Origin: Prevotella sp.
GTDB lineage: Bacteria > Bacteroidota > Bacteroidia > Bacteroidales > Bacteroidaceae
DNA: 46,745 bases
Reading direction: 5' to 3'
Assembly (NCBI GenBank): GCA_017554145.1
Contig: JAFZIZ010000003.1
Location: 1 to 46,745, forward strand
Within the stretch, counting starts at the first letter, position 1. Every line of letters starts with the position of its first letter. Positions 14,467-33,079 of this stretch are shown piece after piece. The translations under genes were made by a program, and so were the position numbers. The notes below the pieces were generated by a model. That model was not told the DNA's origin, did not search any database, and was given only the letters and a program-made list of their open reading frames with translations.

Positions 14467-17337
14467 ATGTCTTTGGGAAGTTATCAAGAATGGATAGCAG
14501 AGCGCCAACGGCTTCTTGGGCGTATCAAGGAGTTGGAAGCTGAGAATGCCGAGCTTAAGAAGCGGCTTGGCGAAGATGTCACGCCTGTAGTGCACGAACC
14601 GACAGCTATGCAGAAACTATCGGCCCCAAAAAAGGTTGGGCTGTTTCGAAGTGTGTTCAAGGGACGTGAGGATGTGTTTGCCAGAAGATGGTACAGCAAA
14701 GCGAGTGGGAAGGGTGGCTATCAACCAGTATGCCAAAATGAATGGAGTCAACAACTATGTGATAAGCGAAAGTTCAAGTGCGCCGAATGCCCGAATCGTC
14801 TGTTTGCTCCATTGGCAGACAATGTTATTTACCGTCACTTGGAGGGAAAAGACGCAGATGGCAGGGATGTGATTGGACTCTATGTACTCAATGAGGACAA
14901 CACATGCAACTTATTGTGTACCGATTTCGATGACAAGAACTGCGAGCATGGCTATCAGGAAGACGTGGTAGCCTTTATTGATGTCTGCAAGAGTTGGGGT
15001 GTTCCTTGGTCTATAGAACGCTCGCGCTCAGGAAATGGTGCTCATGTGTGGATTTTCTTTGAGACTCCAGTCTTGGCAGTTAAGGCTCGTAGGTTGGGTA
15101 ATGCTATCCTAACAGAAGCGATGAATAGAGATGGACGGATTTCTTTCAAGTCATATGATAGATTCTTTCCAAACCAAGACACATTACCTGAAGGTGGACT
15201 CGGGAATCTCGTTGCGCTACCTCTACAAGGTAATGCCCGGAAGAATGGCAATAGCGTTTTCGTAAATGAATACTTTGAGCCTTTCCCTGACCAATGGGAA
15301 TATCTGCTGAATGTAGGCAAGCTCTCGGCATCTGCCTTGGAAGAGATATTGAAACAAACTGCCAACATCATGCCACTTGGTGATTTGTCAAAGACCAGCG
15401 AGAGCAAACCTTGGGAAGTGCCGACAACCACTAAGATAGAGAATACCGACTTCTCCTCGGAAATTATCATCACGCGGTCAAACATGCTCTATATCCCGCT
15501 GAACCAGCTTTCATCGAAAGTCCTCAACCACCTCAGGCGTATTGCATCGTTCCGAAATCCCGAGTTCTATAGCAAACAGGCACTACGACTATCCACCTAT
15601 CAGACGCCTCGCATCATTTCCTGTGCAGACCTAACGGACGACTATCTTGCACTTCCTCGAGGATGTGATGATGCTGTCACAACACTTCTGAAAGATAAAA
15701 ATGTTGCCTATCGAATTGAGGACAAGACAAATCATGGTAGGGTCATATCCGTTCATTTCAGTGGTGATCTACGCAAGAATCAGCAAGAAGCTGTCAATGC
15801 TTTGGCTACGAATAACACGGGCGTACTCTCAGCGACGACAGCCTTTGGAAAGACGGTGGCTGCCATAGGTCTCATAGCTGAGCATAGCGTCAATACATTG
15901 ATACTTGTTCATACAAAGGCATTGCTTGATCAATGGGTGCAGAGACTCGAACAATTTCTTGTTATTGATGACGTGCCTGTAATTGAGAAAGGCAAACACA
16001 AGAAGAACCTTTCGCCTATTGGCACGCTATCCTCAACAGGTAACAAACTTCATGGCATCATCGACATCGCACTCATGCAGTCGTGTATTTCAGATGGCGA
16101 AGTAAAACCCTTCGTCAAAGACTATGGGCTGGTTATTGCCGATGAGTGTCACCACGTTTCTGCAGTCAACTTCGAGCAGATTCTGAAAGCTGTCAATGCC
16201 CGATATGTTTACGGCCTGACAGCTACTCCTATCCGAAAAGACGGTCATCAGCCCATCATCTTTATGCAATGCGGTCCAATAAGGTATAATGCCGATGCCA
16301 AGGCCCAGATGCGAGACCAGACATTCCAGCGGTTGCTGGTTCCTCGCTTTACGCCATTTAGACCTGTAAGTGGTGAGGATCTTTCGTTTACGAAGGTGGC
16401 CCAACAACTGACAGAAGATGAGTATCGCAACCTGTTCATCGTCAAAGATGTCATAGAGGCATTAAAAAAGGGGCGTTCACCGATAATTCTAACGAGCAGA
16501 ACTGCTCATGTTGAAATCCTTGCAGACCTTCTCAAACCACACTGCCCTAACGTTATCACCCTTGTTGGCTCAGAAAGCGCCAAGGAGAAACGCCAGAAAA
16601 TGGAACATCTACAATCCGTTCCCTCCTCAGAGCCGCTTATCATCGTAGCCACTGGCAAATATGTGGGTGAGGGTTTTGACTACGCACGCCTTGATACTTT
16701 GTTTCTGGTTTCACCAGTCGCCTGGAAAGGCATTGTGGCCCAATATGCAGGTCGATTGCATCGAGAGTTTGACGGTAAGGAGGATGTGCAAATCTATGAC
16801 TACATTGACATCCGTGTTCCTGTTTGCGAGTCCATGTACCACAAACGCCTGAAAGGCTATGCTTCCATTGGTTACAGAATCCGAAATAACGAAATGTTCG
16901 ACAGCCTGTTCCCAACGACAGATATAATATATGATGGTTTAAACTTTGTTTCACCATTTGTTTCTGACCTCTCAAAATGTAAGCGTTCTGTTGTCATTTC
17001 ATGTCCTAAAGTCAGGATTGGCCGACAACATCGGATTGCAGACCGACTTGTAGACATTGCAGCAAAAGGTATCGAGGTCATTCTACACACAAGAGGAGAG
17101 AATGAAGACACACTTCATTTGCAGCATCAAGGTATCGTAGTCATTACAACCCCCCAACTTTCTCTTCATGCCACCATCATCGACAAAAGTACCATCTGGT
17201 ATGGCAGCGTGAATATTCTTGGCTATCAGTCCACCGAGGACAATCTCATTAGATTCCAAAATGCAGAAATAGCCTCAAACTTATTGGACACATTACATGT
17301 TACGCTTCATGCTACCTTCTCCACCACATGTTCTTGA
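14467..17337 (+). CDS. TOTE conflict-system protein: AEP-type primase + SF2 helicase + PLD-like domain
   Basis: 956 aa. Residues 10-37 are a short coiled coil (IKELEAENAELKKRL). Residues about 60-290 match the archaeo-eukaryotic primase domain of TOTE systems: a zinc knuckle C98/C105/C108, the catalytic pair TDFDDKN (153-155) and FFPNQDTLPEGGLGNLVALP. Residues about 430-830 are an SF2 helicase with Walker A ATTAFGKT (456-463), DECH (559-562), TATP and the arginine-finger motif QYAGRLHR. The C-terminus resembles a phospholipase-D-like nuclease half (WYGSVNILGY), but the usual HxK reads HAT (901-903), so the catalytic lysine is missing and nuclease activity is doubtful. TOTE proteins are inferred anti-mobile-element effectors; activity here is inference. 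Confidence 0.88.
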   Translation: MSLGSYQEWIAERQRLLGRIKELEAENAELKKRLGEDVTPVVHEPTAMQKLSAPKKVGLFRSVFKGREDVFARRWYSKASGKGGYQPVCQNEWSQQLCDKRKFKCAECPNRLFAPLADNVIYRHLEGKDADGRDVIGLYVLNEDNTCNLLCTDFDDKNCEHGYQEDVVAFIDVCKSWGVPWSIERSRSGNGAHVWIFFETPVLAVKARRLGNAILTEAMNRDGRISFKSYDRFFPNQDTLPEGGLGNLVALPLQGNARKNGNSVFVNEYFEPFPDQWEYLLNVGKLSASALEEILKQTANIMPLGDLSKTSESKPWEVPTTTKIENTDFSSEIIITRSNMLYIPLNQLSSKVLNHLRRIASFRNPEFYSKQALRLSTYQTPRIISCADLTDDYLALPRGCDDAVTTLLKDKNVAYRIEDKTNHGRVISVHFSGDLRKNQQEAVNALATNNTGVLSATTAFGKTVAAIGLIAEHSVNTLILVHTKALLDQWVQRLEQFLVIDDVPVIEKGKHKKNLSPIGTLSSTGNKLHGIIDIALMQSCISDGEVKPFVKDYGLVIADECHHVSAVNFEQILKAVNARYVYGLTATPIRKDGHQPIIFMQCGPIRYNADAKAQMRDQTFQRLLVPRFTPFRPVSGEDLSFTKVAQQLTEDEYRNLFIVKDVIEALKKGRSPIILTSRTAHVEILADLLKPHCPNVITLVGSESAKEKRQKMEHLQSVPSSEPLIIVATGKYVGEGFDYARLDTLFLVSPVAWKGIVAQYAGRLHREFDGKEDVQIYDYIDIRVPVCESMYHKRLKGYASIGYRIRNNEMFDSLFPTTDIIYDGLNFVSPFVSDLSKCKRSVVISCPKVRIGRQHRIADRLVDIAAKGIEVILHTRGENEDTLHLQHQGIVVITTPQLSLHATIIDKSTIWYGSVNILGYQSTEDNLIRFQNAEIASNLLDTLHVTLHATFSTTCS

Positions 17338-19013: not shown

Positions 19014-19432
19014 CAATAATTACTCCATCGGACACACTTTTATATGTTTAATTATCTACACCCTCGGCTTTGCACCTGAGCGTTGAAAACGGTTACTAAC
19101 TCGGGAATCTGCATGTCTGCGAAACGCAGAGCGAAATTGATGTAATAAATGTGTTGTCGCATAATTTGGAATTTTTGAAGTTTATAAATGTTGCTTGACT
19201 TTCGTCGAGTTTAATCCTCGCCTCAGCAATATTCAAACGAGTTTGATACTGCGTTTGGCTCGTCATAACTTCCGCATCGTACTGACCACCGTGGCTCCAA
19301 TTGCTCGGTTGGCGAATCCATCCGTAGATGACTACTCTTAATACTTTCAAGTGCAAAAATACTAATATTTTGTGGGATATCCAATCTTTCTAGAACGAAA
19401 TTGATGGAAAATGCAAAAAAGATACGAAAATG
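19014..19432. other. Intergenic stretch with no convincing gene
   Basis: About 420 bp between the minus-strand HTH operon and the leader promoter. An 86-codon minus-strand frame (19096-19356) contains helix-like residues (TQYQTRLNIAEARIKLDES), preceded by a TATTTTTG box, and could be a decayed gene fragment. I cannot assign a family, and the region may be a relic of an earlier rearrangement. Confidence 0.4.
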
Positions 19433-19464
19433 TTTGGTGGTTTGTGAAAATATGTATAATTTTG
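19433..19464 (+). promoter_or_regulatory. Strong promoter of the leader/RNA-ligase transcript
   Basis: TTTG at 19433-19436, exactly 20 bp, TAATTTTG at 19457-19464: a near-ideal Bacteroidota promoter. It lies about 400 bp ahead of the RNA ligase gene, and no other TAnnTTTG promoter is seen between the terminator and the ligase start, so ligase expression should depend on reading through the terminator. Confidence 0.8.
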
Positions 19465-19498
19465 CCGCCGTTTTCCAAATTTATATAAATAAAGAGCA

Positions 19499-19672
19499 AT
19501 GCTGCAACAAAAAATGAACATATCAACACTGTTACCACTCCAGGGCAAAGAATGCTTTGGAGGCTTCTGCTATGTTCATACAAACGACTCGATGAGTATT
19601 GCAGCACGTGACTGGTACACGAACACTTTCCAACGAACATCATCAGATAGAGGATCTGACAGGACAGCATAG
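19499..19672 (+). CDS. 57-codon leader peptide ORF of the attenuator
   Basis: ATG at 19499, TAG at 19670-19672, 57 aa, starting about 35 nt after the promoter -7 box. No known domain and no signal peptide. Its middle part (codons 19-44) is dense in Cys, Phe, Tyr, His, Ser, Met and Trp: Cys 19 and 24, Phe 20, 23 and 44, Tyr 25 and 40, His 27, Ser 31 and 33, Met 32, Trp 39 (12 of 26 residues). These are the seven amino acids served by the downstream tRNA array. Codons 43-46 contain the 5' arm of an antiterminator. The arrangement is that of an attenuator leader peptide; that it is translated is inferred. Confidence 0.6.
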   Translation: MLQQKMNISTLLPLQGKECFGGFCYVHTNDSMSIAARDWYTNTFQRTSSDRGSDRTA

Positions 19673-19719
19673 ATGCAGCTGACCATCAGAGTATAGAAGA
19701 TAACGAGACCGTTGGAAAG
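19626..19719 (+). promoter_or_regulatory. Antiterminator pairing of the transcription attenuator
   Basis: CTTTCCAACG at 19626-19635, inside the leader ORF, is identical to the 3' arm of the terminator and perfectly complementary to CGTTGGAAAG at 19710-19719, the terminator 5' arm. The two structures (10-bp antiterminator, 12-bp terminator) are mutually exclusive. A ribosome moving through codons 43-46 would mask the upstream arm and allow termination; one stalled earlier would leave it free to block the terminator. A further 6-bp pairing, ATGTTC (19572-19577) with GAACAT (19635-19640), could act as a region 1:2 pair. Confidence 0.65.
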
Positions 19720-19753
19720 AGCTTACCAAACTTTCCAACGGTTTTTCGTTATC
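19699..19753 (+). terminator. Intrinsic terminator upstream of the RNA ligase
   Basis: Perfect 12-bp stem: ACCGTTGGAAAG (19708-19719), 11-nt loop, CTTTCCAACGGT (19731-19742), followed directly by TTTT. An outer 8-bp inverted repeat (GATAACGA 19699-19706, TCGTTATC 19746-19753) encloses it. It stands 36 nt after the leader ORF stop and about 105 nt before the ligase start. Confidence 0.82.
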
Positions 19754-19858
19754 TGTGTGTCCATTTCCCGTACTTCTCCACGGCCTTAGCAGCTGGGCAT
19801 ACGCTAATCAACAACAGTATTAACCGCGCAGCGATGCGCACAAAAGAAGAAAAAGAAA

Positions 19859-20896
19859 ATGTTAGAATTCAAGAAGTACAGCTCTATCGAAAACTCCTTT
19901 AGCCGTGAGTTCATGGAGCACGTAGTGGCAGAGATGCCACAGGATTTGGAATATGTGGTGCAGGAGAAGGTACATGGTGCCAACACCAGCTTCCTTTGCG
20001 ACGGTGAGACCGTGAGGTTCGCCAAGCGTACATCAATGCTGGAGGATGGAGAGCAGTTCTATGACTATCCTGAGTTGCTCGAAAGATACCGAGACAGAGT
20101 GCTGAAGCTGTTCGGTGGCATCAAGGCTAAGTATCCTGAGGTAACTCACATCTCCGTATTTGGTGAGATGTTCGGCGGTCTGTATCCTCATGATGGGGTG
20201 AAGGCAAGGCAGAAGGTCGGCCTAATTCAAAGAGGTGTCTGTTATACTCCTGACCATGAGTTTTATGGCTTTGACATCTACCTCTTTACCGTGGAGGGCG
20301 GAAGATTCCTCCCTGTTGATGAAGTCAACGAGCTCTTTGAGACCTATAGTTTCTTTTATGCCAAGACTCTCTTCAGGGGAACTTTGGCTGAGTGTCTGAA
20401 GCAGCCTAACGCTTTCCAGAGCAAGATTGCTGAGTGGTTGGGACTGCCAGCTATCGAGGACAACATCTGCGAAGGTATCGTCATCCGACCTGTCACTCCA
20501 ATGTATCTGAGGAACGGCTCTCGTGTACTCATTAAGAGTAAGAATGAGCGGTTCGCAGAGCGGAAAAGCGCAAAGCGCCGCACCAAGCTTTTTGTCGAGC
20601 CTGTGCCTTACAGTGATGAATTGAAGTCCCTGATAGTCGAGGGTGAAACCTACGTCACCGAGAACCGTCTGGCAAACGTGGTTAGCCATATCGGTGAGGT
20701 GCATTTCCCCAAGGACTTCGGCAAGGTAATGGGATTGTTCTCAAAGGATGTTCTTGAAGACTTCCTCAAGGAACATGGCAACTTGTATACTGCACTTGAA
20801 AAGAGCGAGCAGAAGCTGTTGAACAAGGAACTCAACAAGTTCTGTACTGCCCTAGTAAAACAGGTCTACATGAGTCAGGCTTATATCATAGAATAA
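19859..20896 (+). CDS. Rnl2-family ATP-dependent RNA ligase
   Basis: 345 aa, close to T4 Rnl2 (334 aa). All nucleotidyltransferase motifs are visible: motif I EKVHGANT with the AMP-accepting Lys37, RFAKR just after, motif III VFGEMFGG, motif IV CEGIVIRP (Glu205) and motif V LIKSKN (Lys226, Lys228). A C-terminal helical part of about 90 residues matches the Rnl2 C-domain. Rnl2 enzymes seal 3'-OH/5'-phosphate breaks in structured RNA. It heads an operon with two phosphoesterases and lies behind an attenuator. Its start follows an A/G-rich stretch (AAAAGAAGAAAAAGAAA), the ribosome-site style used across this operon. Substrate unknown; tRNA is proposed because of the neighbouring array. Confidence 0.92.
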   Translation: MLEFKKYSSIENSFSREFMEHVVAEMPQDLEYVVQEKVHGANTSFLCDGETVRFAKRTSMLEDGEQFYDYPELLERYRDRVLKLFGGIKAKYPEVTHISVFGEMFGGLYPHDGVKARQKVGLIQRGVCYTPDHEFYGFDIYLFTVEGGRFLPVDEVNELFETYSFFYAKTLFRGTLAECLKQPNAFQSKIAEWLGLPAIEDNICEGIVIRPVTPMYLRNGSRVLIKSKNERFAERKSAKRRTKLFVEPVPYSDELKSLIVEGETYVTENRLANVVSHIGEVHFPKDFGKVMGLFSKDVLEDFLKEHGNLYTALEKSEQKLLNKELNKFCTALVKQVYMSQAYIIE

Positions 20897-20959: not shown

Positions 20960-21541
20960 ATGAATTTCAAGTTTAATGCAGAACATACGTTCTTTACATC
21001 CGATACGCATTTCAACCATGCGAATATCATAGGCTTCTGCAATCGTCCTTTCAAGGATGTAGAGCAGATGAATGAGGCCTTGATAGTTAATTGGAACAGT
21101 ATCATAGGAGCCGATGATACGGTATTCCACTTGGGTGATTTCTGCCTGGGCGGTGCTGCCGAATGGACAAAGGTATTGGATCGGCTGAACGGTAAGATTT
21201 ATCTGATACTCGGCAACCACGACCTGAAGAATATCCGTCAGGGGTTCGTCAGTCGATTTGAGCATGTTGCGATGCAGATGTTCATAGAGGTGGGGAAACA
21301 GAAGATATATCTGAACCACAATCCGTTTCTCTGTTATGGGGGAGCATATAAAGACATTTGGCAGTTGTTTGGCCACGTTCATAGTGGACCATTCAACACA
21401 GGAAAGGACAAACCGCGTCTGAACATGCTCTTCCCGATGCAGTACGATGTGGGAGTAGACAACAATGGGTTTGCTCCCGTCTCATTCGAACAAGTTAAGA
21501 GAATAATAAACAAGCAAGTAGAACAAACAAAAAAGGAATAA
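20960..21541 (+). CDS. Calcineurin-like metallophosphoesterase, small type
   Basis: 193 aa, covering the complete core fold: TSDTHFNHANII (D-x-H), FHLGDFCLGG (GD), LILGNHD (GNHD), NHNPFLCYGG and LFGHVHSG (GHVH), which together bind two metal ions. This short family is common in phages and mobile elements and often hydrolyses phosphodiesters or cyclic phosphates. Being second in the RNA ligase operon, it could heal RNA ends (for example a 2',3'-cyclic phosphate) before ligation; that is inference. No polynucleotide kinase is present, so a 5'-OH end could not be rephosphorylated by this operon alone. Confidence 0.9.
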   Translation: MNFKFNAEHTFFTSDTHFNHANIIGFCNRPFKDVEQMNEALIVNWNSIIGADDTVFHLGDFCLGGAAEWTKVLDRLNGKIYLILGNHDLKNIRQGFVSRFEHVAMQMFIEVGKQKIYLNHNPFLCYGGAYKDIWQLFGHVHSGPFNTGKDKPRLNMLFPMQYDVGVDNNGFAPVSFEQVKRIINKQVEQTKKE

Positions 21542-21546
21542 CAATT

Positions 21547-22128
21547 ATGGGAGTAGATATATCATTGCATATAGAAATCAGAAAGCAAAACCAATGGCAT
21601 CTGATGACTGTCACTTCGCCTCAATGGGAGAAGACTGACCACGAATATGAGATTTTTAATACTGAGGTCTTTAATTGCCGGTATTACCATTTTCGGGACT
21701 TCTTGAATGAAGCAGATACGCACAAAAGTCGCAATAAGGACATCTTGAGTGAAGAGCTTCAAAAATTGATTAGTGACGATGACTACGACATGGGATTCGG
21801 TGTGTTTATGTTTAGTGACATAGTGCATTATTGTGACAAGCTGGAGAAGAAACTGCTTTCAGGCATTTCCCATGCAGGAATCTATTCTATCAAGGAACAA
21901 TTGAACCGCATTGAAGCCAAATTGGATAATGATTCATCAGTAAAGTCTGCTGCAGAGGAACAGCATGAACTCTATGAGGATGTAACATCTATAGAGCAGA
22001 TGTATGAGGACTTCATGTGGGACTATGGACTCCTCTTCCGCTTTCGAGATACAGTCCAGGCACTGATGTCTTTCGGGTACAACTACATTAATGAGTCGGA
22101 TGTGCGTATCTTCTACTTAGTATGCTAA
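21547..22128 (+). CDS. Unknown protein of the RNA ligase operon
   Basis: 193 aa, 5 bp after the first phosphoesterase. It starts MGVDISLHIEIRKQNQWHLM, has an aromatic-rich core (FNCRYYHFRDFL), a coiled stretch around SIKEQLNRIEAKLDNDSS and an acidic C-terminal third. No catalytic motif, signal peptide or membrane segment. The MGVDI start is reminiscent of phage-encoded small proteins, but I do not recognise the family. Its tight position between two phosphoesterases suggests a structural or accessory part of the same process. Confidence 0.7.
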   Translation: MGVDISLHIEIRKQNQWHLMTVTSPQWEKTDHEYEIFNTEVFNCRYYHFRDFLNEADTHKSRNKDILSEELQKLISDDDYDMGFGVFMFSDIVHYCDKLEKKLLSGISHAGIYSIKEQLNRIEAKLDNDSSVKSAAEEQHELYEDVTSIEQMYEDFMWDYGLLFRFRDTVQALMSFGYNYINESDVRIFYLVC

Positions 22129-22148
22129 TAATTAAGAAAAAGAAGACA

Positions 22149-22916
22149 ATGAAAATACAGTACATGAGTGATCTCCACATGGAGTTATACGACAATTCGC
22201 GGTATATTAAAGCGAAAGAGTTTGATGCTAATGGTGATGTTTTGGTGCTCGCAGGTGATACATTCTACCTGCGAGACATCGTCGCACCACAAAAGAGGTT
22301 CTGGAATTGGGCCTCGAAGAACTTCCGTCAGGTGCTGATGGTGCCAGGCAATCATGAGTTCTATGGCAATGGCGATGTGACCGAACGTGGCGATAGCTGG
22401 CAATGGATGTTCCGTGAAAATGTCGGTTACTATTATAATAAGGTGGTTCGTATTGACGACACAGATTTCATCCTGACTACACTATGGTCAAAGATTCCTG
22501 AAATGGATATGTTCTACGTATTGAGAGGGATGAATGACTTTCGCCAGATTATGTATGATGGCCGTCGGTTTATGCCTGAGGACTTCAATCTTGAACACGA
22601 GAAATGTCTCAGATTCTTGAAACAGGCCGTCAAAGAGAGTACTGCCGAACATATCGTTGTGGTTACTCACCATTTGCCTTCCTTGGCAGTTGTGGCTGCA
22701 CGACACATGGGTTCTGTCTTGAACGGAGCATTTGCTACGGAACTTGGCAACTTTATTGCCGACAGCCGCATTGACGCATGGATATATGGCCATTCACATA
22801 CGAACATTGATACTACCATAGGAAATACGAAGATCGTGTGTAACCAAATGGGGTATGTGTTCTCAAACGAGCACCTGACTAACGGATTTGAATCCGGCAA
22901 AGTAATAGAACTATAA
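22149..22916 (+). CDS. Calcineurin-like metallophosphoesterase, larger type
   Basis: 255 aa from the ATG at 22149, chosen because it follows the operon's AAGAAGACA ribosome-site pattern; an upstream ATG at 22122 would add lysine-rich residues only. Motifs: YMSDLHMEL (D-x-H), LVLAGDTFYL (GD), MVPGNHEFYG (GNH), VVVTHHLPS and WIYGHSHTN (GHSH). It is only distantly like the first phosphoesterase, so the operon holds two different enzymes of the superfamily, perhaps acting on different RNA ends or nucleotides (inference). Confidence 0.9.
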   Translation: MKIQYMSDLHMELYDNSRYIKAKEFDANGDVLVLAGDTFYLRDIVAPQKRFWNWASKNFRQVLMVPGNHEFYGNGDVTERGDSWQWMFRENVGYYYNKVVRIDDTDFILTTLWSKIPEMDMFYVLRGMNDFRQIMYDGRRFMPEDFNLEHEKCLRFLKQAVKESTAEHIVVVTHHLPSLAVVAARHMGSVLNGAFATELGNFIADSRIDAWIYGHSHTNIDTTIGNTKIVCNQMGYVFSNEHLTNGFESGKVIEL

Positions 22917-22928
22917 AAAAAGAAGATT

Positions 22929-23051
22929 ATGAACCATTCAGATTGTAAAATACATTATGCCAGTAAACAAAAACGCATTATTGCGTTACAAAATAATAGA
23001 CAGAAGCCTGCGAAACAGGTACAGAAGATGGACGATAGAGGACCTGGTTGA
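22929..23051 (+). CDS. Possible 40-aa ORF overlapping the WYL-type HTH gene
   Basis: ATG at 22929 follows AAAAAAAGAAGATT, the same start context as every other gene of this operon, whereas the ATG of the HTH gene (22957, a different frame) has none. The frame runs 40 codons, rich in Lys, Gln and Arg, to TGA at 23049-23051. It may be a coupling or regulatory ORF, or evidence of a frameshift at the start of the HTH gene. No homology recognised. Confidence 0.35.
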   Translation: MNHSDCKIHYASKQKRIIALQNNRQKPAKQVQKMDDRGPG

Positions 23052-23373
23052 TGCGGTATCTGATGCACTCTATGATATGGAGGGCATCCAGAAGGGCGTT
23101 TCTCTGCGTACAGTCCAAGCAGATATCCAAATGATGCGTTCTGACAAACTTGGATACAACGCACCTATAGAGGTGTACGACCAGAAATTCTACCGCTACG
23201 CAGATCCGAATTACTCTATTACGGAACTGCCTCTGACAAATGAGGATGTCAGGCTTATAGATAAAGCTGTTGATTTGTTAGCGAAAGCTGAAGGACAGCC
23301 AGAACTACAAGCAACAGGCAGAGTCCTGAAACGAGTAAGGAAAAGATTGATCGCTATCCTGAATTTCGGATAA
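22957..23373 (+). CDS. WYL-type transcription regulator, HTH part only
   Basis: 138 aa. It matches the N-terminal part of Bacteroidota WYL regulators: MPVNKNALLRYKIIDRSL, then RRWTIEDLVDAVSDALYDM and VSLRTVQADIQMMRSDKLGY, a winged HTH. The ligand-binding WYL domain (usually another 150-200 residues) is absent; after PLTNEDVRLIDKAVDLLAKA the frame stops. It is last in the RNA ligase operon and ends 8 bp before a terminator. Full WYL proteins often regulate defence loci in response to nucleic acids; a truncated form could be a constitutive DNA binder or a remnant. Confidence 0.8.
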   Translation: MPVNKNALLRYKIIDRSLRNRYRRWTIEDLVDAVSDALYDMEGIQKGVSLRTVQADIQMMRSDKLGYNAPIEVYDQKFYRYADPNYSITELPLTNEDVRLIDKAVDLLAKAEGQPELQATGRVLKRVRKRLIAILNFG

Positions 23374-23421: not shown

Positions 23422-23423
23422 TG

Positions 23424-23497
23424 AGTGAGGAGTAGGATTCGAACCGACGAAAGACGGTTTTGCAGACCGCCCCCTTAGACCACTCGGGCATCCTCAC
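23424..23497 (-). tRNA. tRNA-Cys(GCA)
   Basis: 74 nt. Acceptor GTGAGGA pairs with TCCTCAC, discriminator T73 as expected for Cys, anticodon loop CTGCAAA. The D-arm (CCCGAGTGGTCTAAGGGG) looks like that of a class II tRNA (Ser/Leu/Tyr type), yet the variable loop is short. Last of the eight-gene array. CCA not encoded. Confidence 0.88.
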
Positions 23498-23504
23498 ATA
23501 GTTG

Positions 23505-23612
23505 GGAGTTTGACAGGTTTCGCGCTCGGCCCAAAGGGACGCTTTGCTTTGCAAAGAACCTGTGACCACCAGAGCCACAATCTGGTGCTCTACCTACTGA
23601 GCTACAAACTCC
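23505..23612 (-). tRNA. tRNA-His(GTG) with a 34-nt insertion in the T-loop
   Basis: All His features are present: an extra G-1 facing C73, acceptor GAGTTTG/CAAACTC, anticodon loop TTGTGGC in stem CCAGA/TCTGG, T-stem ACAGG/CCTGT. The T-loop should read TTCGAAA but is split as TTC-[34 nt, plus-strand 23522-23555]-GAAA. Without the insertion it is a normal 74-nt tRNA. The insertion contains small inverted repeats (TTTGC/GCAAA and CCC/GGG). It may be an intron-like element, a palindromic insertion, or an inactivating event. Confidence 0.85.
23522..23555 (-). repeat. 34-nt insertion splitting the tRNA-His T-loop
   Basis: Lies between T-loop C56 and G57, so the T-stem is intact and only the loop is enlarged. 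In tRNA sense it starts TTTGCAAAGCAAAGCG and ends GGGCCGAGCGC, able to form a 5-bp hairpin TTTGC-AAA-GCAAA and a second small CCC/GGG hairpin. No second copy seen in this window. Confidence 0.8.
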
Positions 23613-23618
23613 ATGTTG

Positions 23619-23705
23619 TTGCGGGAGCAGGATTCGAACCTGCGTCCGGTTTTTGGCCGGCCCAGCTTATGAGACTGGTGAGTTGGGCCACTACTCTATC
23701 CCGCG
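23619..23705 (-). tRNA. tRNA with CAT anticodon (initiator-like ends, class II variable arm)
   Basis: 87 nt. C1 faces A72 (unpaired) and A11:T24 occurs in the D-stem, both initiator-fMet hallmarks, but the anticodon stem (CCAGT/GCTGG) lacks the three G:C pairs of initiators. The variable arm is 18 nt with a CCGG/CCGG stem, the architecture of Ser, Leu or Tyr tRNAs. Met (CAT) is the literal reading; a lysidine-modified Ile tRNA or a non-standard tRNA cannot be excluded. Confidence 0.75.
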
Positions 23706-23711
23706 ATTTCG

Positions 23712-23784
23712 CAGAAGCAGAAGGATTCGAACCTCCGACCTTCGGTTTTGGAGACCGACATTCTACCAACTGAACTATGCTCCC
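23712..23784 (-). tRNA. tRNA-Trp(CCA)
   Basis: 73 nt. Anticodon loop CTCCAAA in stem TCGGT/ACCGA, discriminator G73 as expected for Trp. The acceptor GGGAGCA/TGCTTCT holds two G:T wobbles and the T-stem one. Its last 25 bp before the acceptor end (23714-23738) are identical to those of tRNA-Ser(GCT) at 24056-24080, a sign of recombination or duplication within the array. Confidence 0.85.
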
Positions 23785-23788
23785 ATCG

Positions 23789-23870
23789 TTGAGGTGGCGG
23801 GACTCGAACCCACGAAGCCGAATGGCGGCAGATTTACAGTCTGCTCTCGTTGACGCTGGAGAACACCACA
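23789..23870 (-). tRNA. tRNA-Tyr(GTA)
   Basis: 82 nt, class II. Anticodon loop CTGTAAA in stem GCAGA/TCTGC, long variable arm with GCC/GGC, discriminator A73. Acceptor TGTGGTG/CACCTCA has a T3:T70 mismatch and a T1:A72 first pair instead of G:C. GTA anticodons are normal queuosine targets. Confidence 0.82.
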
Positions 23871-23881
23871 TTATATTATTG

Positions 23882-23954
23882 TGGAACCTCGTGGAGTCGA
23901 ACCACGTTCTCAGGATTTTCAGTCCAGCGCATACACCAAGTCTGCCAAAGTTCC
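23882..23954 (-). tRNA. tRNA-Phe(GAA), unusual body
   Basis: 73 nt. Anticodon loop CTGAAAA; acceptor GGAACTT/AGGTTCC; discriminator A73. The D-arm (TGGCAGACTTGGTGTATGC) closely resembles the D-arm of the adjacent tRNA-Ser(TGA) rather than a normal Phe D-arm, and the anticodon stem has a T28:T42 mismatch. The variable loop is short. It looks like a Ser/Leu-type gene converted to a GAA anticodon. Confidence 0.78.
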
Positions 23955-23959
23955 TTTGG

Positions 23960-24047
23960 AGGAGGCTAAGGGATTCGAACCCTTGGGGCGTTTTACCGCC
24001 CTCTGGTTTTCAAGACCAGTGCAATAGACCAACTCTGCCAAACCTCC
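23960..24047 (-). tRNA. tRNA-Ser(TGA)
   Basis: 88 nt, class II. Anticodon loop CTTGAAA, variable arm GGGCG/CGCCC, T-stem AAGGG/CCCTT. The discriminator is T73, where seryl-tRNA synthetase normally meets G73. Followed directly by CCA and then, 2 nt later, the tRNA-Phe gene. Confidence 0.86.
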
Positions 24048-24053
24048 AATTTG

Positions 24054-24136
24054 CGGAAGCAGAAGGATTCGAACCTCCGAAACCTTTCGGTTTTACACGT
24101 TAGCAGCGTGTCGCCTTACCACTCAGCCATACTTCC
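24054..24136 (-). tRNA. tRNA-Ser(GCT)
   Basis: 83 nt, class II. Anticodon loop CTGCTAA in stem ACACG/CGTGT, variable arm AACC-GAAA-GGTT, discriminator G73. First gene of the array, about 16 nt after the promoter -7 box. Its 3' quarter is identical to that of tRNA-Trp. Confidence 0.88.
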
Positions 24137-26223: not shown

Positions 26224-26847
26224 ATGACAGAAGACAAACCACTCAGACAAATCATAGAAGAAATTCCTCCTGGAAATGTTCTTTTCAGGACAGACTTTCC
26301 GCAATATAATGTGGAGTTTGTGGGAAATGTGCTGACTAAACTCGTAGAAGACAATGTAATTGTCAAGTTGGCTCAGGGCATCTACTATAGGCCTAAGCTG
26401 AGCAGGTTTGGAGCGGTTAAGCCATCTATAATTCAGATAGCAGAGAGTATTGCGAAACGCGACAATGCCGTGATTCTTCCCGTTGGAGAGACTGCACTTA
26501 ATGAATTGGGACTATCTACACAAGTCCCAATGACCTATACATTCCTTACTAACGGTAGTGGTAGAACTATCAATCTGGGTAATCAAACCATTGTATTCAA
26601 GCGTGGTGTTCCACGTAATTTTGCATATAAAACCACACTAATGGCTTATCTTGTTCAAGCTCTCAGAGCACTGGGTAAGGATAACGTTGGCGAAACAGAA
26701 CTATCTCAAATAAGAAAACTCATTCGAATGGAACCAGAACAAGACAAGCTTCGTCAGGATCTAATGATGGTTCCTATATGGATGCGAAAAATGATATCAC
26801 CTATTATAATTAAGAAAGGTAATGAAACAAACACTTTGGATAAATAA
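26224..26847 (+). CDS. abiEi: AbiEi-like antitoxin/repressor (DUF6088 type)
   Basis: 207 aa. The N-terminus is a winged helix (LRQIIEEIPPGNVLFRTDF...LTKLVEDNVIVKLAQGIYYRPKLSRFG), the DNA-binding part of type IV AbiEi antitoxins; the rest (NAVILPVGETALNELGLSTQ) is the conserved AbiEi-type C-domain. AbiEi represses its own promoter by binding inverted repeats and counteracts AbiEii without direct contact. It overlaps the toxin gene by 26 bp. The repeat at 26195-26217 is a candidate operator. Confidence 0.85.
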   Translation: MTEDKPLRQIIEEIPPGNVLFRTDFPQYNVEFVGNVLTKLVEDNVIVKLAQGIYYRPKLSRFGAVKPSIIQIAESIAKRDNAVILPVGETALNELGLSTQVPMTYTFLTNGSGRTINLGNQTIVFKRGVPRNFAYKTTLMAYLVQALRALGKDNVGETELSQIRKLIRMEPEQDKLRQDLMMVPIWMRKMISPIIIKKGNETNTLDK

Positions 26848-27844
26848 TAACGATACCGACCGTTCATACATGTTGGAAAAGACCGAAGAGAGTCATCCTG
26901 GTATTGGACGGGCGGCAATTGAAAAGGACTGGTGGGTTAGTGTCACATTAAAGGCACTATTCCAGGCGGATTGTGCAGAAAGCTTGATATTCAAAGGCGG
27001 TACCAGTCTTAGCAAAGGCTGGGGATTGATTGAAAGATTTTCTGAAGATATTGACCTGGCTATCAGTCATTCATTCTTTGGCGTCAATAAGTCCAACAAG
27101 AGTCAACGCGATAAGCTGCGCAAGTTGTCGAGAGCCTATATCCAAAGCACTTTGTCAGGTCAACTTGATGAACGTTTAAAGGCCATGGGTATCACAGGCT
27201 ACCAGATAGAGAACATCACTCATGTAGAAAACAGGGAAGGTGAACTTGTTCCTATTGATAGCGACAAAGATCCAACCGTCATCGTGCTTCACTACGACAG
27301 TCTTCTCACTCGGAAGATTGACTACATCCCGCCCAGGGTGAAGATTGAGATAAGCTGTCTCTCTATGGACGAGCCAGTTGAGGAGCGTGAAATACGTTCA
27401 CTTATATGCGGGACATTCCCTGATGATGATACAGATGCTGTATGCCGAATCAAAACTGTAGTGCCTACTCGTACTTTCTTGGAGAAGATATTCTTGTTGG
27501 CAGAGGAATTTCAGAAGGACAAGCCTCGAAGTGTCAGGATGTCCCGCCATCTCTATGACCTTGAGCGTCTTATGGATTCTGAGTTTGGTAAGTCTGCATT
27601 AGCGGACAAAACTTTATATGATGCCATCATTGAACATCGAAAAGCCTACTATGCGCTAAGATATGTGGACTACTCATTGCATCACCCAGACACCATTAAC
27701 ATTCTGCCACCAGAGAACGTGCAGGATGACTGGCGACAGGATTATTCCAATATGCAGCGATACTTCATTTATGGAAGGTCATTGGATTTTGATCATCTAA
27801 TGCAGCGGATTCAGGAATTACAACAGAGATTACGAAACATGTAG
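26822..27844 (+). CDS. abiEii: AbiEii-like nucleotidyltransferase toxin
   Basis: 340 aa. The nucleotidyltransferase signature is clear: FKGGTSLSKGWGLIERFSED then DIDLAI, giving the GG-TS and D-x-D metal site, plus downstream VKIEISCLSMDEP carrying the third acidic region. AbiEii toxins transfer nucleotides, in studied relatives to tRNA 3' ends, stopping growth and blocking phage. Length is normal (about 300-350 aa). It is coupled to abiEi by overlap and followed by a second copy of the operator repeat. Role in the element: maintenance and phage defence (inference). Confidence 0.9.
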   Translation: MKQTLWINNNDTDRSYMLEKTEESHPGIGRAAIEKDWWVSVTLKALFQADCAESLIFKGGTSLSKGWGLIERFSEDIDLAISHSFFGVNKSNKSQRDKLRKLSRAYIQSTLSGQLDERLKAMGITGYQIENITHVENREGELVPIDSDKDPTVIVLHYDSLLTRKIDYIPPRVKIEISCLSMDEPVEEREIRSLICGTFPDDDTDAVCRIKTVVPTRTFLEKIFLLAEEFQKDKPRSVRMSRHLYDLERLMDSEFGKSALADKTLYDAIIEHRKAYYALRYVDYSLHHPDTINILPPENVQDDWRQDYSNMQRYFIYGRSLDFDHLMQRIQELQQRLRNM

Positions 27845-30875: not shown

Positions 30876-31064
30876 GGGGCTTGCCCCTTTGGATTCCCCA
30901 GCAGGGAGTGACTTCTCCCTACACCTACCGCTCAAGGCTCTGCCCTAAGAACCTGCCAAGGGCTACTTGCCCTATGGAACCTCGCAAGGGGGGGACCCTC
31001 CCCCTTGACCGCCCCGCTCAGAGGTCTCGACCTCTAAGAACTCTGACCAGGGAACAATCCCTGG
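30876..31064. repeat. Row of six short GC hairpins upstream of mobV
   Basis: Perfect or near-perfect stems at 30876-30887, 30903-30920, 30959-30973, 30985-31007, 31020-31035 and 31047-31064, with loops of 2-7 nt, following one another over 190 bp. No ORF is credible here, which is why the relaxase is started at 31100 and not in the longer open frame. Together with the nested dyad this is the oriT-like leader region. Confidence 0.8.
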
Positions 31065-31099
31065 ACCCAATTGTTGAACAACTTAAAAGTTTACAAATT

Positions 31100-33079
31100 A
31101 TGGCAAAAGGTGATAGATTCGTTGTCCTAACGATGGACAAGCAAACTGGCAATGCGGGGGGACTCTCCGCCCACATTGACCGAGAAGTATATGACGCTAA
31201 TCTGGACCGAATGGTAACATTCCGTCCGAAGAGCGTCCGTGATGATTCTCGTACAGCACTCAACCGTGAATGCATTGAGGGAGCAAAAAAGGTTGGCCGA
31301 ACACAAGCCATTTGGAACCGACTAAAAGAAGAAGGTTTTTCCCGCGAGAGTTCAGGCAAAAAGAAGATAGTAACGAAAGGGGAAAAGAAAACCCGTAAGA
31401 TCAAGGATGATGCGGTCATCGCTCTATGTTTCATATGCAGTTCCGATGAGGAAACCATGAAGCAATTCGAGAAAGAGGGCAGGCTTGATGACTGGATAGA
31501 CTCTACTCTTGGCTGGTTTAAGCAGGAGTTTGGTGACAAGAACGTAGTATCCGCTGTTCTGCACATGGACGAGACAACTCCCCATCTGCACGTCACAGTT
31601 GTCCCAATAACATACGAAGAGCCAAAGCCGCGTAAGGAGAAACCCAAGTTTGACGAGAGAGGAAAGCCCTTGCGTAAATATGAGACTGACGAGAACGGTA
31701 ACATTATCCTCGATGAGAGCGGCAGGGCTATTGTCAAGAAGCGCACCTACAAGAAGCAAGAGGTAACAGCCCGACTCTCTGCCAAGGATATTTGTAATCC
31801 TGTAGCAATGGAACGTTGGCAGACAGGATATGCAAAGGCTATGGCCCCATTTGGTTTGCGTCGTGGGATTGCTGGCAGTAAGCAGAAGAGAGTGCCACCT
31901 GCTGAATGGAATCTTCAGCAAGTCAATGGTCAACTGATGGCTGTTGAAAAGGAAATTGAGGAAAAGAAAGCCGAGATTACCAAGATGGCTCAGGCATCTT
32001 GGTATGACAAGATATTTAACTCTGGGTTGAGTCCCACAGTGAGAAAAGTGCTTGAAGATAAAGAAAAAGAACACAAAGAAGAACTCCGTCAGGCAACAAC
32101 AGCTGTTGACGAGGATGGCCGTCCCTATGTCTGGACAAGTGGCAGCAAGAAAGACCAGGATGTCACATGGGAAGAATTAGCCAAGTTCCGTGAAAAGGAG
32201 AAAAAGAAGGCAGAGATTCAAGCCAAGGCGGATAAAGAAGCGGCTGTTGATAAAGCCCTTATAGAAGCCAAAGCAGAACATGATGCCGAGATAGCCGAGA
32301 TGAAAAAGTTACATGCCAGTCTCATTGACAAAGAGCGTTATGCTGTCAACGAGAAAGGCCAGTCCATTTATTGGTCTGGCGGTTTTAAGGATGGGCAAAA
32401 AGTGACTAAGGACGAAAGAATCAAGTGGTTAAGCAATCAATTGGAAGAATCCAAAGAGGCTAATAAGGCTTTACGTGAAAGGCTGAAAGTCATACGGGAA
32501 CTGATATTCGCTACATGCAATCTGAATTTCACGAAGGTAGTCCAGATTATCGTTGATCAGTGGAAGACAGGCATAAAGCAGTTCACAAAGGACTTGAAGG
32601 ATTTCTTGCAGAAAGCCATGAGTGGAGAAAAAACGGTAGATGGTCGTAAATCATACGTCAATGATGCATTCGACATTGCAAAAATGTCAGCCATGACCGA
32701 TACAGATTGGGAGCCTGACGGCAAAGCACTAAAACCTCTTTATGAAGATGCTTTGAAGATTGCTGACGGAACTTGGGATGCTTATCATCAGCAACGTGAC
32801 CAACTATTTAAAGCTGCAATCAATGCAGTAGCTGAAATGGGTAACAACTCTTGTCAGAGGCATCTGAATCAGAAGCAGGCAGAAACCATTGAAACTTTCC
32901 TTAATTTCGACGGTGGCGACAGAAAACAACTATGCGATGAGATATGGGATAGTGCAAAGGACAAAGTGCATCATTACTGGTTTGATGGCACCTATAATGC
33001 ACTTAAAGAACTTTGCACAAGAGCTCTCTATAGCTGTAATTATGGTACTTCTATCTCGCATTCATCAAGACACATATAG
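31100..33079 (+). CDS. MobV-family relaxase (plasmid recombination enzyme, Mob/Pre)
   Basis: 659 aa from the ATG at 31100 (MAKGDRFVVLTMDK). Relaxase motif I-like NREC in the N-terminal part and the histidine motif HMDETTPHLHVTVVP bind the metal that activates the nicking reaction. After residue about 330 the protein is a long coiled coil (EKEKKKAEIQAKADKEAAVD) with a C-terminal domain. MobV relaxases nick oriT and lead single-stranded DNA into a helper conjugation pore. The gene stands alone behind the hairpin-rich oriT-like region and ends before a convergent terminator. Confidence 0.93.
   Translation: MAKGDRFVVLTMDKQTGNAGGLSAHIDREVYDANLDRMVTFRPKSVRDDSRTALNRECIEGAKKVGRTQAIWNRLKEEGFSRESSGKKKIVTKGEKKTRKIKDDAVIALCFICSSDEETMKQFEKEGRLDDWIDSTLGWFKQEFGDKNVVSAVLHMDETTPHLHVTVVPITYEEPKPRKEKPKFDERGKPLRKYETDENGNIILDESGRAIVKKRTYKKQEVTARLSAKDICNPVAMERWQTGYAKAMAPFGLRRGIAGSKQKRVPPAEWNLQQVNGQLMAVEKEIEEKKAEITKMAQASWYDKIFNSGLSPTVRKVLEDKEKEHKEELRQATTAVDEDGRPYVWTSGSKKDQDVTWEELAKFREKEKKKAEIQAKADKEAAVDKALIEAKAEHDAEIAEMKKLHASLIDKERYAVNEKGQSIYWSGGFKDGQKVTKDERIKWLSNQLEESKEANKALRERLKVIRELIFATCNLNFTKVVQIIVDQWKTGIKQFTKDLKDFLQKAMSGEKTVDGRKSYVNDAFDIAKMSAMTDTDWEPDGKALKPLYEDALKIADGTWDAYHQQRDQLFKAAINAVAEMGNNSCQRHLNQKQAETIETFLNFDGGDRKQLCDEIWDSAKDKVHHYWFDGTYNALKELCTRALYSCNYGTSISHSSRHI

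Follow-up and report, generated by a model that had tools for sequence, protein, structure and literature searches.

In the 46,745-nucleotide (nt) stretch of Prevotella sp. DNA analysed here (contig JAFZIZ010000003.1, referred to below as the window), positions 19433-19858, which precede a gene for an Rnl2-family RNA ligase, probably constitute a transcription attenuator built around a leader open reading frame (ORF); its polarity, the ribosome as its switch and translation failure as its signal are what we infer for it. The feature reported in an initial annotation of this DNA is confirmed as an observation and is wider than first reported, and the interpretation given there is supported, its functional side being a deduction. 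Comparison of sequences indicates that such leaders constitute one family of attenuators, each built on a leader ORF and serving a modular RNA-repair-like cassette, distributed through the family and the order and without an Rfam match at gathering score. Support for the ORF, for two mutually exclusive helices, for their fixed order and for the link to one cassette comes from conservation and covariation. Coordinates are collected in Table 1.

Table 1. Predicted features of the leader and of the cassette that follows it (positions in the window)
Feature	Coordinates	Strand	Remarks
Bacteroidetes-type promoter: TTTG, 20-nt spacer, TAATTTTG	19433..19464	+	pattern match
P1, 5' strand GCAATGC	19496..19502	+	contains leader start codon; partner 19596-19602
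Leader ORF, 57 codons	19499..19672	+	
P3 hairpin	19538..19562	+	within leader ORF, codons 14-22
P1, 3' strand GTATTGC	19596..19602	+	
Region 2, antiterminator strand, ACTTTCCAACG	19625..19635	+	inside leader ORF
Region 3, terminator 5' arm	19708..19719	+	alternative partner of regions 2 and 4
Region 4, terminator 3' arm and T-run	19731..19746	+	
Conserved post-terminator element	19754..19803	+	contains ACTTCTCC (19772-19779)
GCGCA-GCGA-TGCGC hairpin	19826..19839	+	directly 5' of ligase start
Rnl2-family RNA ligase	19859..20896	+	TIGR02307, PF09414, PF18043
MPE1, calcineurin-like metallophosphoesterase	20960..21541	+	
ORF3, protein without assigned function	21547..22128	+	
MPE2, metallophosphoesterase	22122..22916	+	
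ORF5, small protein weakly like WYL-type regulators	22957..23373	+	PADLOC WYL, E 1.8e-4
Transfer RNA (tRNA) array: Cys, His (disrupted), Met, Trp, Tyr, Phe, Ser-UGA, Ser-GCU	23423..24136	-	opposite strand

The leader ORF and the intrinsic terminator both lie where the initial annotation had placed them. The terminator arms (19708-19719 and 19731-19742) enclose an 11-nt loop and run into a T-run at 19742-19746, an outer stem joins 19699-19706 to 19746-19753, and the 58-nt segment folds at -28.6 kcal/mol (z score -8.7); a terminator scan with a loop limit of 8 did not list it, its loop being 11 nt long. A 10-nt repeat of the 3' arm had been claimed inside the ORF. The repeat is present and complements the 5' arm, and it is one nucleotide longer than claimed, with ACTTTCCAACG found at 19625-19635 and again at 19730-19740. 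An unguided search of the window ORF for the best complement of the terminator 5' arm returned region 2, and 0 of 200 dinucleotide shuffles of the ORF scored as high. Folding gave both alternatives: RNA from 19620 to 19732, which includes only two bases of the 3' arm, adopts the antiterminator pairing of regions 2 and 3 (2:3; -26.0 kcal/mol, z -3.7), and the complete leader RNA adopts the terminator fold.

Comparison with relatives, named beforehand by the initial annotation as a test that could overturn it, found regions 2, 3 and 4 and the leader ORF conserved and covarying. The alignments were of 14 chosen rows (A2 and A4) or of 30 leaders (A5), the latter combining 14 leader copies from the first set, i.e. 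from ligase loci, with 16 of 19 new ones from other genomic places. Near copies of kept rows and leaders with inserts or damage were left out of A5 (L005, L006, L007, L018, L019, L020, L023, L024, L026, L027, L029, L039, L040 and L059, leaders being named by locus), as were L099 (cut), L105 (near copy) and L115 (no region 2), and A5 is therefore biased towards intact leaders. Across the 14 chosen leaders, 91.6% of 154 cells are paired for 2:3 and 98.8% of 168 for the terminator pairing of regions 3 and 4 (3:4). On the 30 leaders, the 2:3 core has 91.3% of 300 cells paired and double changes in 3 of its 10 pairs; inclusion of a weak eleventh pair, broken in 20 of the 30 rows, lowers pairing to 86.1% of 330 cells. 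The 2:3 covariation score of 0.177, compared with 0.141 after shuffling, is reached by 0 of 500 shuffles. For 3:4 the pairing amounts to 99.2% of 359 cells, with 7 of 12 pairs doubly changed and a score that again no shuffle out of 500 reaches. When the partner strand was slid by 1-3 columns, pairing was at most 52.7% (2:3) and 57.9% (3:4).

The double changes in 2:3 fall in columns 22/131 (L028), 23/130 (L028 and L017) and 26/127 (the L107 group). GGGGAG in region 3 faces CTCCCC in region 2 of L028, and GTCGG faces CCGAC in the L107 group. In L016, region 2 and the terminator 3' arm have both undergone the same A-to-G change. Measured against the reading frame of L022, region 2 of L017 and L028 is displaced by one base (codon rows compared with A4), so that pairing, and not the codons, is kept there. 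The unguided best complement of the terminator 5' arm coincided with the homologous in-ORF region 2 in 23 of the 24 first-set leaders, the exception being the second copy of L014, and among 200 shuffles 0-4 scored as well in group A and 1 in group B. A Fisher combination of seven such tests gave p = 7e-5, a figure that serves as a guide only, with one leader per group and zero entered as 1/200. Among the new leaders with a terminator the same coincidence was found in 17/18, and 0-8 of 200 shuffles were as good in 15/18. Covariation of 2:3 is clear, not deep, and the alignments indicate that a mutually exclusive antiterminator is conserved, apart from L115, the second copy in L014 and single mismatches in six leaders.

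Upstream of the switch, the P3 hairpin has 92.9% of 126 cells paired and double changes in 4 of 9 pairs, and 0 of 500 shuffles match either the percentage or the covariation score. P1, which holds the start codon, is paired in 89.9% of 89 cells with double changes in 2 of 7 pairs; against shuffles it is weak (37/500 and 16/500). The P1-P3 segment folds with a z score of -3.7. A P2 helix is visible by eye and was not counted, its register shifting between groups; an outer stem of the post-terminator element, likewise visible by eye, was set aside for a shifting register in alignment A3. CTTCTCC of that element lies inside the variable outer stem and is unchanged in all 14 A3 rows and present in L046 too. 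The minimum free energy of the element is ordinary (z -0.66), the start-proximal hairpin motif as searched occurs once in the host assembly, and conserved elements extend to about 19841.

The promoter had been described as a full-consensus one. It fits TTTG-N19-21-TAnnTTTG, which we take to be the Bacteroidetes promoter consensus, with TTTG at 19433 and TAATTTTG at 19457-19464; it is not a sigma-70 consensus and is absent from the output of a sigma-70-type promoter scan. The exact pattern occurs twice in the window compared with 0.64 times expected, and at least two matches were found in 11 of 100 shuffles, so that the count taken alone is modest evidence. A -7 box lies 32-46 nt 5' of the leader ATG in 7 of the 9 leaders listed, once as the variant TATCTTCG; the two exceptions are the second tandem copy of L014 and the L040 row, for which the script picked the wrong ATG. 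The claim that no second promoter is visible before the ligase holds, as no TAnnTTTG occurs in the window between 19464 and the ligase start and no promoter motif stands before the gene in any of the 8 relatives examined.

A search for related loci found 41 ligase loci, whose titles name nearly all of them as Prevotella or other Bacteroidales. A covariance model (R1) covering 161 positions of the leader was run against 40 of them, L031 being omitted as its contig begins just before the terminator. It matched 25 of the 40 with E values below 1e-15, twice in L014, and 12 of the 25 had served to build the model. Among the 15 loci without a match, L030, L038 and L042 begin within the ligase, L043 is a fragment, and 11 (L009-L013 and L032-L037) have other upstream DNA with no R1 match, L033 offering only 153 nt of it. 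L046, whose ligase is more distant (66%), has kept the leader ORF and the post-terminator element, with a weak R1 match (E 5.5e-4) and no terminator found. In L014 (5390-5905) a single ligase is preceded by two consecutive attenuators, of which the second lacks its own promoter box and has a weak region 2. In L040 (5760-5800) the orientation of the terminator loop is opposite to that in the other group C leaders, as though the hairpin had been turned round, and the ligase start is missing as well. Three exact leader patterns gave 0 matches in viral_contigs, and R1 found nothing at E 5 in four viral loci with ligase relatives (L002, L061-L063). Neither 1382 phage ligase records, all below 60% identity, nor 2 plasmid records included a close relative of the ligase, in a search that covered the ligases themselves.

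The leader is not confined to ligase genes. R1 was run on 199 relatives, 399 genomes of the family and 295 of the order, these sets overlapping; the genome scans used stricter filters and scored only 7-14 first-look candidates per genome among the rows listed. At E values up to 1e-3 it matched 4 relatives, 20 family genomes and 3 order genomes. A ligase search of the family found the gene in 7 of the 399 genomes, in one only at E 7.7e-4, which implies that many leaders occur without a ligase. Nineteen family and order places that the ligase loci had not revealed were fetched (L099-L117). By reading, most of them have the full set of elements, from the promoter box through the leader ORF with region 2 and the terminator to the post-terminator element and the start-proximal hairpin, the exceptions being L099, which is cut, L104, in which the start codon is changed, and L115, which lacks region 2 and the later elements. 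No Rnl2 match was found in the DNA fetched for them (0.75-7 kb, i.e. kilobases, per locus); L099 ends 83 nt past the leader match and encodes a peptide like those of group C, the ligase type, which makes a ligase at that locus possible.

The next gene was tested solely against the five operon proteins of the window, and in 17 of the 19 new places the next recognised gene was one of them: MPE1 in 14, MPE2 in 2 (L101 and L109) and ORF5 in 1 (L115, beside 11 tRNA genes). MPE1 follows in 13 places (in pieces in L103) and, by reading, in L106 behind an inserted transposase-like ORF. L104 has only transposase-like remnants after the leader. In both L106 and L104 the transposase-like ORF or remnant, as read, lies directly 3' of the start-proximal hairpin. 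Among the 199 relatives, two further places lack a following Rnl2 gene. In G083 (L059, G083:C67, reverse strand) the leader is broken inside the terminator and joined to sequence matching window position 23045, with the ligase, MPE1, ORF3, MPE2 and the start of ORF5 missing; in G049:C177 there is a short leader match at a contig end. All leader places examined lead to Rnl2 or to another operon gene, except L104, G083 and the contig ends L099 and G049:C177. The attenuator had been assigned to an RNA ligase operon, and it does precede an Rnl2 cassette in the window; the leader is part of a modular RNA-repair-like cassette and is not specific to the ligase.

With respect to the leader ORF, the frame set by the homologous start codon is open past region 2 wherever region 2 was identified. 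A stop-free ORF holds by construction, and it is the other two frames that carry the information: over 962 codons of 19 new leaders they contain 59 and 74 stops, one per about 14 codons, and the true frame is 42-76 codons long. Among 13 earlier leaders, both alternative frames are interrupted by stops in 12, and one of the two in L046. Internal gaps in the ORF are 3, 9 or 15 columns long in the DNA alignment A2. Six leaders (L019, L020, L023, L027, L040 and L100) contain a 66-nt insert that leaves the frame intact and, by duplication of ACTTT, forms region 2 anew, although the six may reflect one event; inserts resembling it were seen 3' of the terminator in L005 and L018. The proportions of nonsynonymous and synonymous differences compare at a ratio (pN/pS) of 0.23-0.62 in seven within-group pairs, which we read, with the between-group values given below, as modest selection on the predicted peptide. 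A leader ORF upstream of the operon is conserved and open in one frame, and its translation is predicted.

The following mechanism is proposed. RNA polymerase would start near 19470, as judged from the promoter, and a ribosome would translate the 57-codon leader. In normal translation the ribosome would cover region 2 while region 3 emerges, leaving 3:4 to pair, the terminator to form and the cassette to stay off. A ribosome stalled or missing before about codon 37 would leave 2:3 free to pair, and without a terminator the cassette would be transcribed. The P1-P3 hairpin over the start codon may pause or synchronise the process, which is a guess. The most likely polarity, and the simplest logic, is that completed translation of the leader would permit termination and stalled or absent translation would permit readthrough.

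Geometry and folding of individual leaders bear on this proposal. In six first-set leaders, region 2 starts at codons 40-43, with 31-41 nt between its end and the stop codon and 67-81 nt separating it from region 3. In 17 new leaders it is found at codons 36-41, or at codon 63 in L100, a carrier of the 66-nt insert, and the distance to the stop is 5-8 nt in 5 and 23-34 nt in 12. A ribosome footprint was masked on the RNA up to region 3 in six leaders, and the highest 2:3 pair probability was recorded. With P-site codons 2-34 masked, it is at least 0.75 in 5/6 leaders; with codons 42-46 masked it falls to 0-0.24 in 6/6; with no ribosome it is 0.78-1.0 in five. In L108, L110, L111, L112 and L117, the stop lies 5-8 nt past region 2, so that by geometry a terminating ribosome would cover region 2, which is the classical attenuator arrangement.

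A number of observations weigh against this proposal. A ribosome on the stop codon leaves 2:3 at 0.98-1.0 in 4/6 leaders (0.32 in L017, 0 in L015), and the stop lies 23-41 nt past region 2 in the window (34 nt), where such a ribosome would not reach back over region 2, and in most relatives; since 2:3 survives in most, the OFF state needs the right timing, and in the window either timing or the bulk of the ribosome in the 2-3 loop would have to act. In L015, 2:3 is weak even without a ribosome (0.20). L020 has a damaged terminator, and those of L111 and L040 are altered. Weak results of the shuffle test were obtained in group C (8-29 of 200, and 72-79 in three C leaders with the insert), in D (13 and 23), E (15) and F (23), and in the second copy of L014 (101); among the new leaders, shuffles were as good in L101 (24), L100 (78) and L115 (122 of 200), and L115 lacks region 2 at the usual place. 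The count of double-changed 2:3 pairs is reached by 61 of 500 shuffles for the core and 81 of 500 with the eleventh pair, the changes stem from about two lineages, and kinship without structure can also exceed shuffles. Single mismatches occur in L102, L105, L106, L101, L017 and L025. Finally, pN/pS is 0.61-0.95 in nine between-group pairs.

As to what is sensed, the initial annotation had invoked the logic of amino-acid attenuators. The exclusive helices and the leader ORF stand, but the leader is not a classical amino-acid attenuator: in the window, its relatives and the wider set, codons for one amino acid do not form a run and no single control codon is conserved. Because no control codon is conserved, a general translation-failure signal is the better guess than a single amino acid, and the content of the cassette makes tRNA damage an attractive candidate trigger.

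In a codon-specific reading, the leader would gauge how much is available of the tRNAs whose genes form the array (Cys, His, Met, Trp, Tyr, Phe, Ser) and would turn repair on when they are cut. In codons 16-42 of 9 leaders all seven amino acids exceed background, Cys 3.7-fold, a score that 625 of 77,520 seven-residue sets reach; the set accounts for 0.35 of codons 16-38 in 11 chosen new leaders, compared with 0.23 in the genes of the window; and at least 4 tRNA genes lie in the fetched DNA at 10 of 25 first-set leader loci, with 11 in L115. However, the range was picked after looking, and codons 2-42 give 9,938 of 77,520 sets. Cys, His, Ser and Phe are still frequent in the wider leader set, and the recurring residues lie in or beside the strands of P1, P2, P3 or region 2, the recurring Cys, Tyr and His codons in or beside those of P2 and P3. 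Neither Cys nor Trp occurs in L111 and L117, the wider set conserves neither of them, and the leader is kept at 17 of 18 new loci scanned although the DNA fetched there shows no tRNA gene. With a suggestive result in one chosen range and not in a longer one, and with no single codon conserved, sensing of the array tRNAs was set aside and we regard it as unlikely.

Equally unlikely, in our estimate, is a structured sensor RNA, i.e. a riboswitch or protein-binding leader in which P1-P3 would be the binding site of a ligand or protein, with an ORF that is incidental or only gated by it. The strong covariation of P3, the fold of the P1-P3 segment and the position of the start codon within P1 would suit such a sensor, whereas P1 covaries weakly and the register of P2 shifts between groups, as judged by eye. 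Moreover, the start-codon frame is open past region 2 while the other frames are full of stops, and the 66-nt insert preserves both frame and region 2 in six leaders, possibly through one event. Arrest of the ribosome by the nascent leader peptide in response to an effector seems more improbable still: the peptide is short, has recurring residues and gives the within-group pN/pS stated above, but peptides differ strongly between groups, range from 42 to 59 codons without the insert, and have their recurring residues where RNA helices and region 2 overlap them. A chance arrangement, in which a small RNA or gene further upstream simply ends in a terminator and a promoter that escaped notice follows, is very improbable given that both helices covary, the architecture is conserved, no promoter motif precedes the gene in 8 of 8 relatives and L014 has a tandem copy, even if sigma-70-like promoter matches around the leader equal those in shuffles (21 and 21.2).

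Translation failure, our preferred signal, would be reported to a cassette whose first gene scores as an Rnl2-family ligase (216.7 bits against TIGR02307, above the curated cutoff of 197.15). Residues 4-116 of MPE2 match the PADLOC candidate model PDC-S10 (E 1.4e-11), and ORF5 has no Pfam match. The His gene of the tRNA array (match 23555-23611) was not called by ARAGORN, and its 3' half looks interrupted by an insertion; in relatives such as L003 and L022 a His tRNA gene is called intact. A TOTE-type primase-helicase (14467-17337) lies upstream, and an AbiEi/AbiEii pair (26224-27844), a Mob_Pre relaxase (30881-33079) and two integrases lie further downstream, from which we conclude that the cassette sits in mobile, defence-rich DNA.

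Taken together, we tentatively propose, as a plausible reading that could prove wrong, that these leaders form a Bacteroidales family of RNA switches which, without a protein sensor, read translation failure and open a modular RNA- or tRNA-repair cassette, in which phosphoesterases may or may not be joined by Rnl2, ORF5 and tRNA arrays; the one in the window would ride on a mobile element, probably as a counter-defence against tRNA-cutting or translation-arresting attack, and tandem copies would make control stricter. If this is true, a regulatory RNA family would be defined in Bacteroidales that could serve as a marker for further members of a poorly known RNA-repair-like cassette, and the inducing signal would become testable by reporter. 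At gathering score, Rfam gave no match in the leader, with only tRNAs found in the window and 15 relatives; the T-box model (RF00230) is not among the 4 matches obtained up to E 10 in 19350-19900, all of them below the gathering score. Consistent with the initial annotation, which knew of no such case for an Rnl2-type ligase, the titles listed by searches of the open-licence PubMed Central (PMC) literature include no attenuator or leader peptide for an RNA ligase or tRNA repair.

Attenuators of the trp, his, leu and phe type combine a leader ORF, an overlapping terminator and antiterminator, and ribosome position as the switch. The leader described here would work alike; it differs from the trp type in controlling RNA-repair-like genes without a run of control codons, in having region 2 inside the ORF and the P1-P3 hairpin at the start codon, and in matching no Rfam family at gathering score. 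The tetQ leader of Bacteroides conjugative transposons is likewise a leader-peptide switch on Bacteroidales mobile elements, with the difference that it acts by translational attenuation on another gene through another peptide. Bacteroid-trp is presumably a leader-peptide attenuator. It is listed for Bacteroidetes as RF01692 (PMC2864571). As of 2010, leader peptide systems were reported to be known, ermC apart, only from Proteobacteria and Actinobacteria, and Firmicutes were then added (PMC2965389). Rnl2 ligases and RNA repair have been discussed for jumbo phages (PMC7824862).

The toiL upstream ORF of topAI-yjhQ in E. coli is a short leader ORF through which general translation stress is reported and a stress-related operon opened, by ribosome-binding-site occlusion and Rho-dependent termination (PMC12121999); the leader in the window would share the reporting of translation stress by a short ORF and differs in its intrinsic terminator. 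The functionally nearest system would be the rtcBA RNA repair operon, which encodes the RtcB ligase and is induced by broken tRNAs through RtcR, whose CARF domain binds tRNA fragments (PMC7790460). Both are RNA ligase operons, with induction by broken tRNAs there and, as we suppose, by translation failure here, and with a protein sensor and RtcB there in place of the cis RNA switch and Rnl2 ligase of the window. An RNA repair operon must be switched on while translation is failing, which rtcBA achieves through a protein that binds broken tRNAs; if our reading is true, a leader that reports the failure directly in cis would represent a second and simpler solution than the rtcBA sensor.

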